A DNA stretch of 43,930 nt. Source: Peptococcaceae bacterium (lineage in GTDB: Bacteria; Bacillota; UBA994). Every line of letters begins with the position of its first letter. Within the stretch, counting starts at the first letter, position 1. The translations under genes were made by a program, and so were the position numbers. Shown here piece by piece: positions 1 to 10,869 of the stretch. The DNA lies in assembly GCA_018334055.1 (NCBI GenBank), contig JAGXSS010000096.1:1-43930 (forward strand), given 5' to 3'. The notes under the pieces are model-generated. The model was given only the letters and a program-made list of their open reading frames with translations, was not told where the DNA came from and did not search any database.

Positions 1-277
1 GAACACGAACCTCAAGTGAGGCTAGCGACAGATGGACGAGTCTGCGCCGTAAGACAAAGTCCTTGCTGCCAAAGTCTGTCGAGAGTACATGTGGCAAGTT
101 CGAGGAAAGCGCAAGGACAGCAGAAAACCCTTGAGAGCGCAGAGCTCTTACCCGGCACAAGCCAGGCGCTACACCTGCGGGACCAAGTGGCACCGTAGTG
201 TTTCATGAACCGCCGTATACCGAACGGTACGTACGGTGGTGTGAGAGGACGGGGGTTAATCACCCCCTCCTACTCGT
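1..277 (+). mobile_element. 3' part of an ORF-less group II intron
   Basis: Bases ~207-242 fold as a group II intron domain V: a CCGCCGTA/TACGGTGG stem capped by a GAA-type loop. Bases ~243-277 give a domain VI-like hairpin (GGGGGTTAATCACCCCC) ending in CTCCTACTCG, the usual 3' end of this intron class. Bases 1-200 resemble domains I-III of the same class; the segment AACACGAACCTCAAGTGAGG and the distant pairing of GTCCTTGC (59-66) with GCAAGGAC (111-118) support this. No reverse transcriptase/maturase reading frame lies between the domain I-III part and domain V, so the encoded protein is missing. If the RNA still splices it would need a maturase in trans. The 5' end is outside the window and the exact 3' boundary is uncertain by a few bases. 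Confidence 0.8.
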
Positions 278-286
278 TGGAACCTT

Positions 287-645: not shown

Positions 646-674
646 TTGACATTGAAGGCGGTGACTGGTATATT
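646..674 (+). promoter_or_regulatory. Strong sigma-A type promoter of the bacteriocin-like unit
   Basis: A perfect -35 box TTGACA (646-651) is followed by a 17-nt spacer and the -10 box TATATT (669-674). A TG dinucleotide one base ahead of the -10 box adds an extended -10 element. Transcription would start near 681, giving a leader of about 90 nt before the first gene. It is the best consensus promoter I saw in the window. Confidence 0.8.
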
Positions 675-777
675 ATTTTTACAAAAATTGATCAGCTTAC
701 TAAATGCTATTTGACGTGAGGAAGATGAAGCCAAAAAATATATTCTGTTCCCACCAAAAAAGAAGGGGGGAATGTTT

Positions 778-1218
778 GTGTTTTATCGTGCTGGCAATAA
801 TGCTAAGAAATTTTGCGGTGTTGTTGTGTTGGTGTTGGCTACAATTAGCTTTTCTACATTATCGGGGATGGCTAGCTGGCCTAATTTTGGCAATTCTGTT
901 CATAACTGGTCTGGGCTCTTTTTTGATGGGTATGTGCAATGCCAGCCGGCATATATTGACAATGGGTTTCATGCCGCGCGTGGGTTTTTTGTGTATCGGA
1001 ATGGCAGGGATGGTGAACGGTGGGCGTTTACTAGCTCCGGCCAGAACTCACAAGACGGCGCCATCTACAGTGCGCAGATGAGATACTGGGACACCCTTAA
1101 TCCCCTGGCTCCAAGGGTGACGTTTAATTACGGGTTTGACTGGGTTCCCTTTGGTTCAGGTATGTGGATTAATGTAGTCATAGAGACCCCGGCAGAGGAG
1201 CTAGGGAGTGATGAATAG
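778..1218 (+). CDS. Small secreted protein, lactococcin-972-like bacteriocin precursor candidate
   Basis: About 146 residues. It has a basic N-terminus (RAGNNAKK), a hydrophobic core (FCGVVVLVLATISF) and a likely cleavage after SGMA, so a Sec-secreted mature protein of about 115 residues starting SWPNFG is expected. The mature part is rich in Gly, Trp, Tyr, Phe and Asn. Its C-terminal part (GAIYSAQMRYW, then APRVTFNYGF) resembles the end of lactococcin 972 (GVWAKATV, then KASFYYNFW); this is a weak match made by eye. I prefer the GTG at 778 because the GGGGGG ribosome site (765-770) lies only one base before the ATG at 772. The gene heads a tight unit with two FtsX-like permeases and an ABC ATPase whose closest remembered relatives serve lactococcin-972-type peptides. 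It could instead be an unrelated secreted protein handled or sensed by the transporter. Confidence 0.6.
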   Translation: MFYRAGNNAKKFCGVVVLVLATISFSTLSGMASWPNFGNSVHNWSGLFFDGYVQCQPAYIDNGFHAARGFFVYRNGRDGERWAFTSSGQNSQDGAIYSAQMRYWDTLNPLAPRVTFNYGFDWVPFGSGMWINVVIETPAEELGSDE

Positions 1219-1236
1219 ATCCGTTGAGGTGGATCT

Positions 1237-2265
1237 ATGAGGTCTAGGCATGCTTGGTTAATTGCGCTTCCGAACGTGTTTTTATCATGTGCCATTACGG
1301 TGTTCGTGAGCTTCACCGCCATTCAGTTTGCCCTTTTCCAGCAAGCCACCACTGTACCGTTTGGGATGCCAAATGAAACTTTCGCTGTCAGGGTGCGCAG
1401 GTCCGGTCCCCCTCTACAGGCTAGCGAGGGGGCAGGTATCCGCAGGGAGCTTGTGCGCTTGCTTGGGGCTACCGACGCAATCCTCGTTTGGGTCGGAGAG
1501 GATTTCGGGCTGGCAGTGCATGACCCCAATGGTTTTTTTGCCGCTCGGCCACTCCGCCAGGGAGGGTACTTTGACAGGGCAGACTTTGGCTCAGAGCTTC
1601 CCTCAGTGTTGGTTAAATATGGCTCCCCCCTCTATCGCATGATTGCTGATGGGTCCGTCCTCGTTGGCGGTGCTAAAGCCACAGTACGGGGCGTATATGA
1701 CCAAAATCACCCCCTATATACACGAGAGCAGTTTTACGTAGTAAGCTTCCTGAACACTACCAGTTTGCAGGCTACGTATTATCTGAGTAGTGACTTGCAC
1801 GTCGTTTCGGGAATAGTGGACCTATTGAGCCGTCACGGCTACACCGCTCAAGTCATCCCTGCGACACACTCTGTAGCGTCGGCGTTGCGTGGGCTGCTAA
1901 ACCCCATATACACGACGGCTGCGGCAGGGCTTGTTTTTCTGTGGTTTAACTGTTTTTTAGTGTACTTCGTTATGTTCACTCGATTTGGAAAGATGTTCTC
2001 TGTGCATATGCGCTTTGGCGCAACGAAAACGACACTCAGAAATAAATTGGTAGCGATGGCATGGCTTCCTATGGGCATGGGAACCTTACTTGGCATTGTC
2101 ACCTATGCCGTGATTTTTCGCCGGAGTGACGGTTTCAGCCTCGTATCGTTGCCTGCGTGGGTGGTGCCAACGGGATTTGCGCTTAGCCTAGCCATGAGTA
2201 CCATGCTTCTGGTCGGCGCATTCTCTTGCCAAAAAATCTGGGCTACAGAGGTCGGGAAACTATGA
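1237..2265 (+). CDS. FtsX-like ABC transporter permease 1 (bacteriocin-associated)
   Basis: 342 residues with MacB/FtsX topology. There is one N-terminal membrane helix (~7-33), an extracytoplasmic domain of about 190 residues, then three C-terminal helices (~225-248, 272-294, 305-329). A cytoplasmic loop with RFGATKTTL between helices 2 and 3 resembles the coupling helix that contacts the ATPase. The ribosome site GAGGTGG sits just ahead of the ATG. The stop codon overlaps the next start as ATGA, which implies translational coupling. In lactococcin-972 clusters the partner is usually one long integral membrane protein annotated as immunity; here two shorter FtsX-like chains take that place. 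The likely role is export of, or self-protection against, the upstream secreted protein. The substrate is inferred from position only. Confidence 0.7.
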   Translation: MRSRHAWLIALPNVFLSCAITVFVSFTAIQFALFQQATTVPFGMPNETFAVRVRRSGPPLQASEGAGIRRELVRLLGATDAILVWVGEDFGLAVHDPNGFFAARPLRQGGYFDRADFGSELPSVLVKYGSPLYRMIADGSVLVGGAKATVRGVYDQNHPLYTREQFYVVSFLNTTSLQATYYLSSDLHVVSGIVDLLSRHGYTAQVIPATHSVASALRGLLNPIYTTAAAGLVFLWFNCFLVYFVMFTRFGKMFSVHMRFGATKTTLRNKLVAMAWLPMGMGTLLGIVTYAVIFRRSDGFSLVSLPAWVVPTGFALSLAMSTMLLVGAFSCQKIWATEVGKL

Positions 2266-3377
2266 TAACCCAGTTAGTTTTTTCATTTAGAGATATTTGG
2301 CGAAAACCCGTAATCTTCGGTTTTTTCGCCATCCAGCTAGTTGTGGCGTTGTTTTTTGGATTCGTATCCCTTGATCAGGTGAGGACTTCTGTTCAGCACA
2401 CCACGGTTGCTCGCGGGTTAGCGGATTCCCGCTTAGTCTTTTTCTCTCCGAACATCGCGACGCTACCTCAACGGCGTTTAACTCCGACAGAACTGATGGT
2501 GACCACACTCGATGAGTCGCAAAGGGCTTACTCAGTGGTGACTTCTCTTAAGCTGCAGGACTATCCTGGCTTAAACGTAGTGGTTGGTTTGGGGGCATTT
2601 GCGGAGACCTTCCGACTAGCCGGGGATCTGAGTGCCATCCCTAAGCCCATTGCGTTTGTCGGGCACGACGTAGACGTGGTGCAAGTAGGGGGCGTCGTAG
2701 AATTTGGTGAGCGCAACACAGAAAACATCGCGGTTAGAAGTAGATTGCCTCGGGGTTCTAGTTACATATTGCGGGGAACTCCAACAAGCCTAGATGACTC
2801 GCTGCTCATTCTTGTTGATGCCAAGTCAGTGCTCGGTTATTTCTTTAACTCTTGGCAGCACTTTGACGAGATCATGGTTAACATGTGTCTTGTAGACCCG
2901 ACAGGAGCAGAGCTGGCTCAATTTGTATCGCGTATTTTGAACGACGCTGGGGTGGCCCTAAACCCCATAGATCTCAATGCCCATTCCCGTCAAGTTCACG
3001 ACGGTAATTTCTATGGCGCGCTCTTCTTTCTTGTCTTTTTCGGCATCACCATGGTCTATACCCTAGTCGGCATAGTGGTAAACATGCTCCAACTTATAGA
3101 TAGTCACTTGTCCGAATACGCAATCCATCTGCTTTCCGGCGCCAGAATGTGGCACTTGTATGCCAGGGTGTTTATTTATGTCTTCGTGTTGGTCAGCCCG
3201 CCAGTTATGCTGGTCTCTTGGCTCTTCCTATTAATGCATCAAATGCCTATGTATGGGTTAGTCGGAGTTGTGCCCCCACTGATATGCTTGATACTGCTCT
3301 TGGCTGGTTTCCCGATACTTAAGCTCTACAAGACTGATTTGTTCGCCCACTTAAGGAGTGATGACCAATGGCATTAA
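2262..3377 (+). CDS. FtsX-like ABC transporter permease 2 (bacteriocin-associated)
   Basis: 371 residues, started at the ATG inside the ATGA overlap (2262), with GAGGTCGGG as ribosome site. The topology repeats that of permease 1: a first helix (~17-37), a large outer domain of about 210 residues, and three helices at the C-terminus (~249-271, 299-322, 330-350). Between helices 2 and 3 the segment SEYAIHLLSGARMWHLY resembles the cytoplasmic coupling element of the bacteriocin-associated (putative immunity) membrane family. The two permeases are clearly different in sequence and probably form a heterodimer with one ATPase dimer. The gene ends ten bases inside the ATPase gene. Confidence 0.7.
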   Translation: MITQLVFSFRDIWRKPVIFGFFAIQLVVALFFGFVSLDQVRTSVQHTTVARGLADSRLVFFSPNIATLPQRRLTPTELMVTTLDESQRAYSVVTSLKLQDYPGLNVVVGLGAFAETFRLAGDLSAIPKPIAFVGHDVDVVQVGGVVEFGERNTENIAVRSRLPRGSSYILRGTPTSLDDSLLILVDAKSVLGYFFNSWQHFDEIMVNMCLVDPTGAELAQFVSRILNDAGVALNPIDLNAHSRQVHDGNFYGALFFLVFFGITMVYTLVGIVVNMLQLIDSHLSEYAIHLLSGARMWHLYARVFIYVFVLVSPPVMLVSWLFLLMHQMPMYGLVGVVPPLICLILLLAGFPILKLYKTDLFAHLRSDDQWH

Positions 3378-4039
3378 TTAGCATGATGTCCTTGCGCAAG
3401 GAGTATCGCCGCGGGCAACACACAACTCACGCCGTCAGGGGCGTATCGCTAGAGATTGAACGGGGGGAGAGCATCGCTGTCACAGGGCCTTCAGGGTGCG
3501 GGAAAACCACCTTGCTTAATATGGTTGGGCTCAACGCAGTGCCCACTTCCGGGGAGCTGCAGATCCAGGGGTTCAAAACAAAGTCTTTTTCTAGCAGCAA
3601 ACTTTCGGCCTTAAGAAGCAGCTTCTTCGGCTACATAGTGCAAGACTTCGCATTAATCGAAGACTACACGGCGTTAGAGAACGTCGAAATCCCGCTACTA
3701 TATGGGCCGGAGCGCTTGGGGCGACGTGAGCGCCATCAGCGCGTAAAAGCCGCTTTAGCACGAGTTGGCGTAGAGAACAAAGTGCACCAGGAAGCGCGTA
3801 ACCTCTCCGGTGGCCAACGCCAAAGAGTGGCTATCGCTAGGGCATTAGTGAGTGACCCCCAAGTGATTTTAGCCGATGAACCTACAGGCTCTTTAGATTC
3901 CGAAACTGGTCACGAGGTGTTTAGCCTGCTAATAGAGTTGGTGCAAGAAGGCAAAACGCTCATTTTGGTGACTCACAATCTAGATCTCGCGCATCAATGC
4001 GGGCGGAGAGTCCAAATGAAGGATGGTCTCATTGTCTGA
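3368..4039 (+). CDS. ABC transporter ATP-binding protein, lactococcin-972 exporter type
   Basis: 223 residues, a complete nucleotide-binding domain: Walker A GPSGCGKTT (40-48), Q-loop Gln92, signature LSGGQ (146-150), Walker B VILADE (166-171) and H-loop His203. The overall type is LolD/MacB, which pairs with FtsX-like permeases. The stretch after the Q-loop, QDFALIEDYTALENV, matches the hallmark of the putative bacteriocin export ABC family of the lactococcin-972 group (typically QNFALIEDxTVEENL), and this is the strongest clue to the cassette's role. The start overlaps the permease gene by ten bases and has AAGGAG nine bases ahead. It is the last gene of the unit; repeat copy 2 begins about 145 bases later. 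Confidence 0.85.
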   Translation: MALISMMSLRKEYRRGQHTTHAVRGVSLEIERGESIAVTGPSGCGKTTLLNMVGLNAVPTSGELQIQGFKTKSFSSSKLSALRSSFFGYIVQDFALIEDYTALENVEIPLLYGPERLGRRERHQRVKAALARVGVENKVHQEARNLSGGQRQRVAIARALVSDPQVILADEPTGSLDSETGHEVFSLLIELVQEGKTLILVTHNLDLAHQCGRRVQMKDGLIV

Positions 4040-4183
4040 TTTGTGCGCGCTGGCGACAAGCTCTAATGGAGCCCGACCTAAATGTGCCCCATCGACAGAC
4101 CGATGCGCTTGCGTTTTTGATCTACACTGAGAATCCTGACCTTTACGACCTGGGCGGTGAGCACTATGCCCTCGGCGGTTGTT

Positions 4184-4276
4184 GGGTTACGGACCGGGGG
4201 TGGGTCGGCGTGCCATGTCACGCCGCTACCTATGGAACTGCCGCGCCGGTAGATGGGACGCTGTGGCGCCGGCACA
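4184..4276 (+). repeat. Structured ~95-nt repeat, copy 2
   Basis: A direct repeat of 287-382. It shares GGGTTACGGAC, the 36-nt core (4202-4237, one mismatch) including the GGCGTG/CACGCC hairpin, and the end GCGCCGGCACA (4266-4276). Its second hairpin uses GCCG-CGCC against GGCG-C-CGGC, a different inner sequence but a similar fold. A phrase TTTACGACCTGGG at 4142-4154 also occurs, slightly altered, inside copy 1 (304-316), so the unit may once have been longer. There is no U-run after the hairpin, so it does not look like a normal terminator. The two copies bracket the whole bacteriocin-like unit. Confidence 0.7.
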
Positions 4277-4299
4277 TGAGGGCTAGTAGCTTTCTGCCT

Positions 4300-5060
4300 T
4301 CATTTTTTGACGGTTGCTAAAATATTTTTTACCTCGCCTAGACGAAGCCTTTTCTTGGTGAAGTCGATGCCGAGAGAATCCTCCAAGACGTCTGAAATCT
4401 CGCTGCGGTAATCAAACAGGTAGATGTTCTCCTGCTCGTTAGAACAGGAGATGCTGTTTAGGCACTCTAGGATCTTGCCCGCCGAGAATCGGTGGGCTGT
4501 TTTTTTCTGGATTAACCGCAGTATCACCAGAGCTAAAAAACAAGTTAGAAAATGGGCACCGATGCGGTCTTCTCGCGAAACGTATACTGGGCGCGCCTCG
4601 AGCGTGCTTTTTGTGATGCGAAAGGTCTCTTCAATCTCCCACAGTCCACGGTAGGTTTCGATGACCTCCGCATCAGACATGTCGAGTTCGCTAGTGACAA
4701 TGGCGTAGTAGCCATCATATTTTTCTTCTTCCGCCACCTTGTCTGAATCAAATTGCGGATCCGCCTCTAGTGCCTTCGCTTTCTTGAGGAGTTCTTCCCG
4801 CTGTGCCTGTCATCAGCCTCATCAATCTCGAAGCAAAAGTTCGTCACATCGTAGTAAATAGTCCTAGTGTCGCGTCCATACTTCGCCACTATCTGCTCGT
4901 GCAGGTACCTCTGGCACTCAGTAGCGACCTTGGCAAAGTGGGAAAGAGCACGGTACACATCCGCCAGAGCGAAGTCAAAGCGCTCAAAGTATCTACCCTT
5001 TTCCTCGAAAGCCTTCTTCTTAGAACCCGGAGACAGCAATCTTGAGACTGTAAGCAGCAT
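4300..5060 (-). pseudogene. Degenerate IS1634-like (IS4-related) transposase
   Basis: Two minus-strand pieces in different frames belong to one transposase. The upstream piece (4767-5060) contains SRLLSPGSKKKAFEEKGRYF and the catalytic-region phrase YYDVTNFCFEID. The downstream piece (4300-4737) contains EEEKYDGYYAIVTSELDMSD, YRGLWEIEETFRITKS and EARPVYVSREDRIGAHFLTC, typical of the IS1634 family C-terminal half. Between them the coding sequence shifts frame near 4765-4800, and the central catalytic part, roughly 150-250 residues, is deleted. The N-terminus is also cut off. No clear terminal inverted repeats were found. This is a dead insertion sequence and marks the end of the accessory region. 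Confidence 0.85.
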
Positions 5061-8269: not shown

Positions 8270-9025
8270 GTGACCGGCATAGGGAGAGTGCTGCGTGAGG
8301 AAAGAGAGGCCCAGGGTATCTCGGTCGCGGAAATGCACAGGCGGACGCATATTAGGGAATGGATTATCGAAGCCATTGAAGCGGAGAATTATCGCGCCAT
8401 TCCTGGCGGAACTACCTATTTAAAGGGCTTTGTGCGCCGTCTCTATGCCGAATTGAACTTAGATTGCGTAGCCTTGTCCAGTCGGGCGGAGCCCTTGGTA
8501 AAAGGCGACGTCCCGCCCGTCGCAAAAAAACGAGCATTGTGGCAGCCTAGTTTGATCTCTCTGGCGGGAATGGCACTGATGCTTATCGCTATATTCGCCT
8601 CTGCGGCATACTGGTTCCTATGGCTACCTAGACCGCAAATTCTCCCACCTGTGGTCACCCCGCCTGAAGCGTTGGAGCCACCCGCGGTACAACCACCACC
8701 ATCAGCTGTTCCGCCAGTGGAAAGACCTGCCTTTGTCCTGGTAAGTGAAGCGGGGGGGACGCTGGTCTACGCAATCGACAAATGGCCGATGGAGCTTGTT
8801 GTATCCGTGCGCGAGGAGCAATGCTGGGTCAGGGTCAATGTTGACGGCCAGGGCGAACGAGCGACCACAGTGCGGGCAGGACAGACCAAGACTGTTACGG
8901 CTAACACCTCCCTCCACATGCGGCTAGGGCGGGCTCGCGTGGTCGATATCTTAGTCAATGGCCGACCACTGCCGCGGCAAGAGGGCGACGTCATAGATTT
9001 TACTTTTAAGAAAGCGGGCCCTTAG
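8270..9025 (+). CDS. RodZ-like protein (HTH_25, membrane helix, DUF4115)
   Basis: About 251 residues. The N-terminus (~2-70) is a Cro/CI-like helix-turn-helix of the RodZ type (GRVLREEREAQGISVAEM, then YLKGFVRRYA-like text). One membrane helix follows (~95-118), a proline-rich linker (~122-152) and a beta-rich outer domain (~155-248) of the DUF4115 family. RodZ links MreB filaments to the wall synthesis machinery; in Bacillota the homologue (YmfM) lies in the same ftsK-pgsA-recA neighbourhood, as here. I chose the GTG at 8270 because AGGGGGTGA (8256-8264) sits at a proper distance; the in-frame GTG at 8261 lies inside that ribosome site. The stop codon falls in the loop of a terminator. Confidence 0.85.
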   Translation: MTGIGRVLREEREAQGISVAEMHRRTHIREWIIEAIEAENYRAIPGGTTYLKGFVRRLYAELNLDCVALSSRAEPLVKGDVPPVAKKRALWQPSLISLAGMALMLIAIFASAAYWFLWLPRPQILPPVVTPPEALEPPAVQPPPSAVPPVERPAFVLVSEAGGTLVYAIDKWPMELVVSVREEQCWVRVNVDGQGERATTVRAGQTKTVTANTSLHMRLGRARVVDILVNGRPLPRQEGDVIDFTFKKAGP

Positions 9026-9037
9026 GGCCTTTTTTTT
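9016..9037 (+). terminator. Terminator overlapping the rodZ-like stop codon
   Basis: GGCCC (9017-9021), loop TTA, GGGCC (9025-9029) and eight T (9030-9037) form a short intrinsic terminator. The TAG stop (9023-9025) lies across its loop. The ygiQ-like gene starts only 15 bases later with GGGGG as ribosome site, so termination may be partial or translation-dependent. Confidence 0.7.
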
Positions 9038-9051
9038 GGGGGTCATAGAAA

Positions 9052-10869
9052 GTGAAACTAGGAAAAACTTTTCTGCCGATGACTTTGCAAGAGATGGAAC
9101 AACGGGGCTGGACCGAAATAGACTTTCTCTTGATTACCGGGGACGCCTATGTTGACCATCCTAGTTTTGGTGCGGCACTCATTTCGCGGATGCTCGAAAG
9201 TGCGGGCTATCGCGTAGGAGTTCTTGCTCAACCTACATGGCGGGAATTGGATTCTTTCAAAGTCTTGGGACAGCCTAATCTAGCCATTCTTGTCACAGCC
9301 GGTAATTTAGATTCCATGGTCGCCAATTACACTGCGGCCGGCAAACCTCGACGCGAAGATGATTTTTCTCCCGGGGGTATAGGTGGTCAACGACCCGATA
9401 GGGCAGTGGTGGTGTATGCCAACCGCGCTCGGGAGGCCTACCCTGGCTCCTTGGTCATCATAGGTGGCATTGAAGCCTCGCTGCGGCGCCAGGCCCACTA
9501 TGATTACTGGTCGGATAAAGTCAGACGGTCGATTTTGCTCGACAGCAAAGCAGACCTGTTGCTCTATGGCATGAGTGAATTTTCTTTACTGGAAGTGGCC
9601 GAAAGATTGCGCTTTGGCCAGCATCATTTTGCCGACATTCCCGGTGTTTGCTATTTGCACTCCAAAGTAGCTCATAATGCCTTAATATTACCAAGTTATG
9701 AGGAAATATGTCAGGACAAGGTTATGTTTGCCGAGGCTTTTCGCCTGGCGCAACGTGAGCAAAATCCCTACACCGGGCGCAGTCTATGCCAAAAGCACGG
9801 TGATATTTATCTTTGTACTAACCCACCCCCGCGCCCTCTCTCTACCTCCCAGATGGATTTTGTTTATAGTCTGCCTTTTGTGCGACAAGTACACCCTTGC
9901 TACGCCAGGAAAGGCGGTGTCAGGTCGCTTGAGGAAGTAGAGTTTAGCATCACCAGTCAACGGGGTTGTTTCGGAGGTTGCTCCTTTTGTGCTCTCACCG
10001 CTCATCAGGGGCGTCAAGTGCAGCGACGTAGCAAGGAATCTATCTTAACAGAAGCCAGGCTGCTCACCACCCTTCCCAATTTCAAAGGCTACATTCACGA
10101 CATCGGGGGTCCTACGGCGAATTTTCATGCCGCGGCCTGCGAAAAACAACAAGACCTCGGAGCCTGCCAAGACAAAGAATGTCTTTCGCCCGAGCCATGC
10201 AAATTACTTAAGGCCGATCACAGTGAGTATTTAGGGCTGCTGCGGGAAGTACGTCGACTGCCTGGTGTGAAAAAAGTATTTGTGCGTTCAGGAGTGAGGT
10301 TTGACTACGTTGTCCTCGATGACGATGAAAGCTTTCTTAAGGAGCTTTGTGAGCATCATACCTCAGGGCAGTTAAAAATCGCGCCAGAGCACGTTTCCCC
10401 ACGCGTTCTCCGCCTCATGGGTAAGCCACCGCGGCGCGTTTACGAAGAATTTGTTGCTCGTTTTACCAAATTTAATAAAGCACTAGCCAAGGAGCAGTAC
10501 TTAGTGCCATACTTTATGTCAAGCCATCCTGGTAGCACCGTGGGAGATGCCGTGCTCCTTGCCGAGTATCTTCGCGACCATAATATTCGCCCCCAGCAGG
10601 TGCAAGACTTCATACCCACTCCGGGTTCTCTGTCTACCTGCATGTATTATACAGGGATGCATCCTTTGACCGGTGAGAAAGTGCATGTCCCTTCTACCGC
10701 AGCAGAGAAGAAAATGCAAAGGGCACTGCTACAGTACTTCTTGCCGCAGAACCATGTCTTGGTGCGTCAAGCCTTGCGCAGTGTCAACAGGGGGGACCTG
10801 GTTGGTTACGGCCCAAAATGCTTGGTCCCTCCGGAACAAACTAGGCCGCCGAAAAAAAGAAAAAGATGA
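9052..10869 (+). CDS. YgiQ family radical SAM protein (UPF0313)
   Basis: 605 residues, typical of YgiQ. The radical SAM motif CX3CX2C is Cys306, Cys310, Cys313 in RGCFGGCSFC, which would bind a 4Fe-4S cluster and S-adenosylmethionine. The N-terminal part (DFLLITGDAYVDHPSFGAAL) is the UPF0313 signature and resembles B12-binding Rossmann folds without an obvious B12 ligand motif. The C-terminal end is very basic (PPKKRKR). The reaction and substrate of the family are not established. The gene starts at GTG and is followed after 21 bases by rimO, another radical SAM enzyme, so the two are probably co-transcribed. Confidence 0.9.
   Translation: MKLGKTFLPMTLQEMEQRGWTEIDFLLITGDAYVDHPSFGAALISRMLESAGYRVGVLAQPTWRELDSFKVLGQPNLAILVTAGNLDSMVANYTAAGKPRREDDFSPGGIGGQRPDRAVVVYANRAREAYPGSLVIIGGIEASLRRQAHYDYWSDKVRRSILLDSKADLLLYGMSEFSLLEVAERLRFGQHHFADIPGVCYLHSKVAHNALILPSYEEICQDKVMFAEAFRLAQREQNPYTGRSLCQKHGDIYLCTNPPPRPLSTSQMDFVYSLPFVRQVHPCYARKGGVRSLEEVEFSITSQRGCFGGCSFCALTAHQGRQVQRRSKESILTEARLLTTLPNFKGYIHDIGGPTANFHAAACEKQQDLGACQDKECLSPEPCKLLKADHSEYLGLLREVRRLPGVKKVFVRSGVRFDYVVLDDDESFLKELCEHHTSGQLKIAPEHVSPRVLRLMGKPPRRVYEEFVARFTKFNKALAKEQYLVPYFMSSHPGSTVGDAVLLAEYLRDHNIRPQQVQDFIPTPGSLSTCMYYTGMHPLTGEKVHVPSTAAEKKMQRALLQYFLPQNHVLVRQALRSVNRGDLVGYGPKCLVPPEQTRPPKKRKR

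Follow-up and report, generated by a model that had tools for sequence, protein, structure and literature searches.

A four-gene operon of a Bacillota bacterium encoding a predicted secreted protein and a split FtsX-type ABC transporter

A four-gene unit behind a near-consensus promoter

The stretch of DNA analysed here (the window, 43,930 nt from a Peptococcaceae bacterium with a genome of 2.4 Mb) carries, between positions 646 and 4039, a real four-gene unit in which tightly packed genes follow a near-consensus promoter, all on the forward strand. The promoter, of sigma-A type, occupies positions 646 to 674 and reads TTGACA-17-TATATT with a TG-extended -10 element, agreeing with 11 of 12 consensus positions; an earlier note on this DNA had proposed a consensus promoter for the unit. 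When the 250 bp upstream were shuffled 200 times, none of the shuffles equalled its score, and a promoter of equal score precedes the orthologous gene in the relative G170.

The first gene, here called sec (778 to 1218), encodes a secreted protein of 146 aa when read from the GTG at 778, or of 148 aa from the ATG at 772. The GTG is the likelier start, because it lies at the usual spacing from AGAAGGGGGG and is in register with the ATG of the orthologue in the relative G008. Nucleotides ~778 to 873 are predicted to encode a signal peptide, with the mature part starting at about 874. There follow two genes for FtsX-type permeases, p1 (1237 to 2265; 342 aa) and p2 (2262 to 3377; 371 aa), and one for an ABC ATPase of the MacB/LolD/FtsE superfamily (3368 to 4039; 223 aa). 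The last three genes overlap, p1 and p2 by 4 nt and p2 and the ATPase gene by 10 nt. All four ORFs are thus present where they had been described, and the reading of the locus as a co-directional unit of a secreted protein, two FtsX-type permeases and an ABC ATPase is borne out by the conservation of this order in relatives.

At the contig end lies the 3′ portion of a group II intron (window positions 1 to 278, with RF02001 at 1 to 117 and RF00029 at 208 to 278), and a broken DDE transposase gene (PF01609; 4300 to 5060, reverse strand) directly follows the cassette. Two copies of a 79-nt repeat, 82% alike, flank the cassette at 314 to 392 and 4198 to 4276. The idea that this direct repeat is a scar of mobility was set aside, since the genome holds about 100 full or partial copies, several of them in tandem clusters (contigs C3, C8, C17, and C54). 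In G170, the cassette (locus L060) sits between direct repeats at 3578 to 3996 and 9011 to 9574 that are 97 to 99% identical (over 257 and 152 nt) and take in the first part of a gene, as though a circular form carrying the cassette had recombined into the site.

The secreted protein and its transporter

Hydropathy analysis of the sec product showed a single N-terminal hydrophobic stretch (residues 14 to 32) with positive charge at the N-terminus. By eye, the precursor carries a Sec signal peptide, and its homologues have a small-residue cleavage site. No lipobox or anchor was seen in it, and profile searches found no hydrolase domain. Compared with G008, the precursor is 63% identical, p1 46%, p2 52%, and the ATPase 70%, while the mature part of sec alone reaches 74%. 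Rough dN/dS values of ~0.15 to 0.19 against G008 and G014, with dS near saturation in both comparisons, together with the lack of any nonsynonymous change over the 55 codons shared with G009, point to purifying selection on sec.

Searches with the six-sequence alignment of the sec family (A6) gave no match in NCBIfam, none in Pfam beyond one at chance level (E = 0.12), and none in the PDB. Absent from all three, the family is undescribed as judged by these searches. Two AlphaFold2 runs on sec returned models that are all-beta after the signal helix, with pLDDT values of 49.8 and 44.9, too low for a claim about the fold. Foldseek with such a model gave no match under 0.001; its matches were Sm-like and other small beta proteins at E ≥ 0.9, which we ignored.

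Both permeases are predicted to have one plus three transmembrane segments around an extracellular span. Their Pfam matches to FtsX are weak, and even the G218 orthologue, at 24.9 bits, stays below the cut-off of 25.5. Profile comparison, on the other hand, matched p1 and p2 to other FtsX pairs, namely to the permease pair of genomes G107 and G098, with P values of 6e-11 and 3e-21. Topology and profile matches together place p1 and p2 in the FtsX superfamily, that is, among the type VII (MacB/FtsX/LolCDE) ABC transporters. Neither permease matched an NCBIfam model, including TIGR01654 (bact_immun_7tm), on which the permease of the lactococcin 972 plasmid pBL1 scores 706 bits. Against the pBL1 permease, p1 aligns weakly by profile with the N-terminal half (P = 1.4e-4), as distant FtsX kinship would predict.

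The ATPase matches ABC_tran at 1.6e-32. It reaches 211 bits on the LolD model (cut-off 307.75), 205 bits on L_ocin_972_ABC (TIGR03608; cut-off 254.85), and 205 of 966 bits on MacB, whose model extends over the fused permease as well. True lactococcin 972 ATPases show the opposite preference, with 253 to 290 bits for L_ocin_972_ABC and 144 to 167 bits for LolD. In an unrooted tree, which shows separate clades and not the nearest one, the lactococcin 972 ATPases formed one clade (support 97/99) and the cassette ATPases another (99/99), with those of G107 and G098 beside the latter (88/87). The cassette clade also stood apart from LolD, MacB, and YbbA of Escherichia coli, and the tree was repeated with a Paenibacillus ATPase, which found no resolved place. 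Scoring below both equivalog cut-offs, the cassette ATPase is by profile of MacB/LolD/FtsE type, yet not an ordinary LolD or MacB. Its phrase QDFALIEDYT, which had been taken for a hallmark of lactococcin 972 exporters, is instead a mark of its own clade; the lactococcin 972 ATPases read QN(F/Y)(G/A)L(I/V)(D/E)N at this place. By profile scores and by tree, the product of 3368 to 4039 is not an ATPase of that group.

Retention of the transporter and a putative role in self-protection

Homologues of sec were found in 4 of 15 genomes of the window's class, while a second class has them in 4 of 13, one of these four being a fragment; among 399 sampled genomes of the phylum, none outside these two classes was reliable. 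A near relative is present in record QLUC01000148.1, a Bacillota MAG. The order sec-p1-p2-ATPase is conserved in six other Bacillota genomes of the two classes (G008, G009, G014, G218, G170, and G311). In G311, p2 and the ATPase form a single reading frame, which however spans a run of N, and in G009 only the end of sec is seen, since the contig stops there. Wherever sec is intact (the window, G008, G218, G170, and G311), p1, p2, and the ATPase gene lie directly downstream, and an intact sec without the transporter was not found among the genomes examined. Several candidates were set aside: the matches in G386 and G135 (E ~0.003) fall within ORFs that are unrelated, and what may be a decayed small gene ahead of the permease in G107 shows no more than chance likeness to sec. 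Searches of plasmids, phages, and viral contigs found no relatives of sec or p2, a weak match on a Streptomyces plasmid being a chance alignment across stops.

The transporter, by comparison, is kept where sec has been lost. In G014, sec contains three in-frame stops; in G069, a C-terminal remnant (VKFNYGFTWV; E = 1.6e-4 in a 30-frame search) precedes p1; in G265 and in a second copy in G008, sec is absent. The transporter is intact at all four of these loci. In G023, a deletion joins pieces of sec and p2. This pattern, from a few draft genomes, fits a toxin with its self-protection, and it has a parallel in the lactococcin-972-like scb locus of pneumococcus, where strains without the bacteriocin keep the other genes (PMC11796350).

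Our preferred reading, to which we assign a probability of about 0.5, is that the cassette encodes a secreted bacteriocin-like protein together with a heteromeric MacB/FtsX-type transporter for self-protection; toxicity, target, and protection are all inferred. The single promoter would drive a strongly conserved, Sec-exported extracellular protein of ~11 to 13 kDa, probably beta-rich, whose mature form would attack the envelope of competitors. The Sec signal on sec makes self-protection or release a more likely role for the ABC transporter than export across the membrane. Together with an ATPase dimer, p1 and p2 would form a dedicated heteromeric machine that protects the producer by mechanotransmission, pulling sec off the outer face of the producer's membrane, or off its target there. 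An antibacterial sec is suggested by the layout, an overlapping four-gene operon behind one strong promoter, and by the survival of the transporter alone. The same layout recurs on Paenibacillus polymyxa plasmids beside an unrelated small secreted protein, and lactococcin 972 has a similar one with a one-piece permease. MacB-family ABC machines moreover handle substrates that already lie beyond the membrane; in Gram-positive bacteria these include extracellular peptides, YknXYZ acting against the SDP toxin and BceAB against bacitracin (PMC5985334). Counting against a bacteriocin, conservation of the mature part of sec exceeds that of either permease, which is unusual for a fast-evolving bacteriocin, and the loss pattern comprises four loci in draft genomes.

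That same activity of MacB-type machines on substrates outside the membrane (PMC5985334), and the strong purifying selection on sec, would also suit a MacB/Lol-like release system, in which the Sec-exported protein serves at the surface or in signalling, is no toxin, and is extracted or released by the ABC transporter. We regard this as improbable, though the best of the alternatives: a transporter whose sole role was the release of sec would not be expected to persist at four loci without a functional sec, and neither lipobox nor anchor marks sec as a substrate of this kind.

Relation to lactococcin 972 and to look-alike operons

The lactococcin 972 operon (lcn972/lclA, orf2-orf3; PF09683, TIGR01654, and TIGR03608) likewise combines a small protein with a Sec signal, an FtsX-type permease, and an ABC ATPase, and its transporter is thought to give immunity. 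For lactococcin-972-like loci, the functions of proteins B and C have not been verified (PMC11796350). The lactococcin 972 operon differs from the cassette in its precursor (91 aa against 146), in having one permease of 648 aa in place of two (342 and 371 aa), in the clade of its ATPase, and in a mature protein without detectable homology to sec.

The earlier note had tentatively assigned the cassette to the lactococcin 972 family, and this assignment was not supported. PF09683 has no match to the product of 778 to 1218, in the window's genome, or in the relatives that bear sec. For a more sensitive comparison we assembled eight true lactococcin-972-type proteins from plasmids and from one genome of the same phylum. 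Aligned with hhalign, mature sec and mature lactococcin 972 gave P = 0.67, a match equalled or bettered by 83 of 100 column-shuffled controls, and their mean pairwise scores were reached by 210 of 300 shuffles. As positive controls, the lactococcin 972 set was recovered when split (P values of 1e-4 to 1e-23), and so was the split sec set (1e-18 or better). The resemblance noted by eye at the C-terminus therefore stays at the level of chance, and profile comparison detects no relationship of sec to lactococcin 972. Nor does the argument for novelty from an anaerobic host and a long precursor carry much weight, since lactococcin-972-like genes in anaerobes, with precursors that include ones of 126, 135, and 148 aa, have already been reported (PMC4289311). 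A protein scoring above the PF09683 cut-off is encoded elsewhere in the phylum, beside large membrane proteins (locus L071, 1459 to 1911, reverse strand).

Could sec nevertheless be a true but highly diverged lactococcin 972 bacteriocin, with the same beta-sandwich, lipid II binding, and a one-piece permease that has been split in two? The gene order is of the same type, p1 weakly resembles half of the one-piece permease by profile, both models of sec are all-beta after the signal helix, if of low confidence, and to the eye the C-terminal FNYGFDW of sec recalls the YYNFW of lactococcin 972. The mature profiles, however, match no better than shuffled columns, sec has neither the opening GGxWxYG nor the SNYxHxxKxHSATV core of alignment A5, and the cassette ATPase falls outside the lactococcin 972 clade. 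Such an origin is unlikely in our estimation, more so than a release system.

Closer in layout are two plasmids of Paenibacillus polymyxa that encode, in the same order, a secreted protein of 134 aa, a pair of FtsX permeases, and an ATPase (WP_014600129 to WP_014600132), the second permease matching p2 of the window by profile (P = 1.3e-9). On the Terrisporobacter plasmid pTVTCOM3, a 111-aa secreted protein precedes one such permease, with no ATPase annotated alongside. Between the small secreted proteins of the two genera, about the last 50 residues are weakly alike (z 3.9); neither protein showed profile homology to sec or to lactococcin 972. pTVTCOM3 measures 5.6 kb and carries, at 3102 to 4776 of locus L125, the genes of the small secreted protein, the FtsX-like permease, and a VanZ protein; it is possibly a minimal bacteriocin plasmid.

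The type VII (mechanotransmission) architecture is shared with the Gram-positive MacB/FtsX family transporters YknXYZ, SpMacB, and BceAB, and each permease has one plus three transmembrane segments as in MacB. Unlike these systems, the cassette combines a heteromeric permease pair with a gene for a secreted protein, and neither an adaptor nor a two-component system is encoded adjacent to it. That sec is the extracellular partner of an FtsEX-like signalling pair, switched by the ABC transporter to control the producer's own wall enzymes, is very improbable: FtsEX belongs to the same superfamily (PMC5985334) and the permeases have FtsX-type topology, but the cassette is patchily distributed in both classes (4/15 and 4/13 genomes), its flanking genes appear to differ between genomes, and sec yielded no hydrolase domain.

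What is new here is the secreted family and its split transporter, both absent from the libraries searched, with a functional role that is putative. More tentatively than the bacteriocin-like reading itself, and with less than even odds, sec may found a new bacteriocin family exported by Sec, and transporters with a split FtsX pair may be a general self-protection platform serving at least two unrelated cargoes, sec and the Paenibacillus/Terrisporobacter kind, to which lactococcin 972 would add a third version with a fused permease. If sec is antibacterial, a family of protein-sized bacteriocins in uncultured Bacillota would have been missed by profile-based mining. The unverified roles of the lactococcin 972 B and C proteins would then become testable through comparison, and the shared layout would offer a family-independent way to find such systems, by searching for FtsX-pair ABC operons headed by a small secreted protein.
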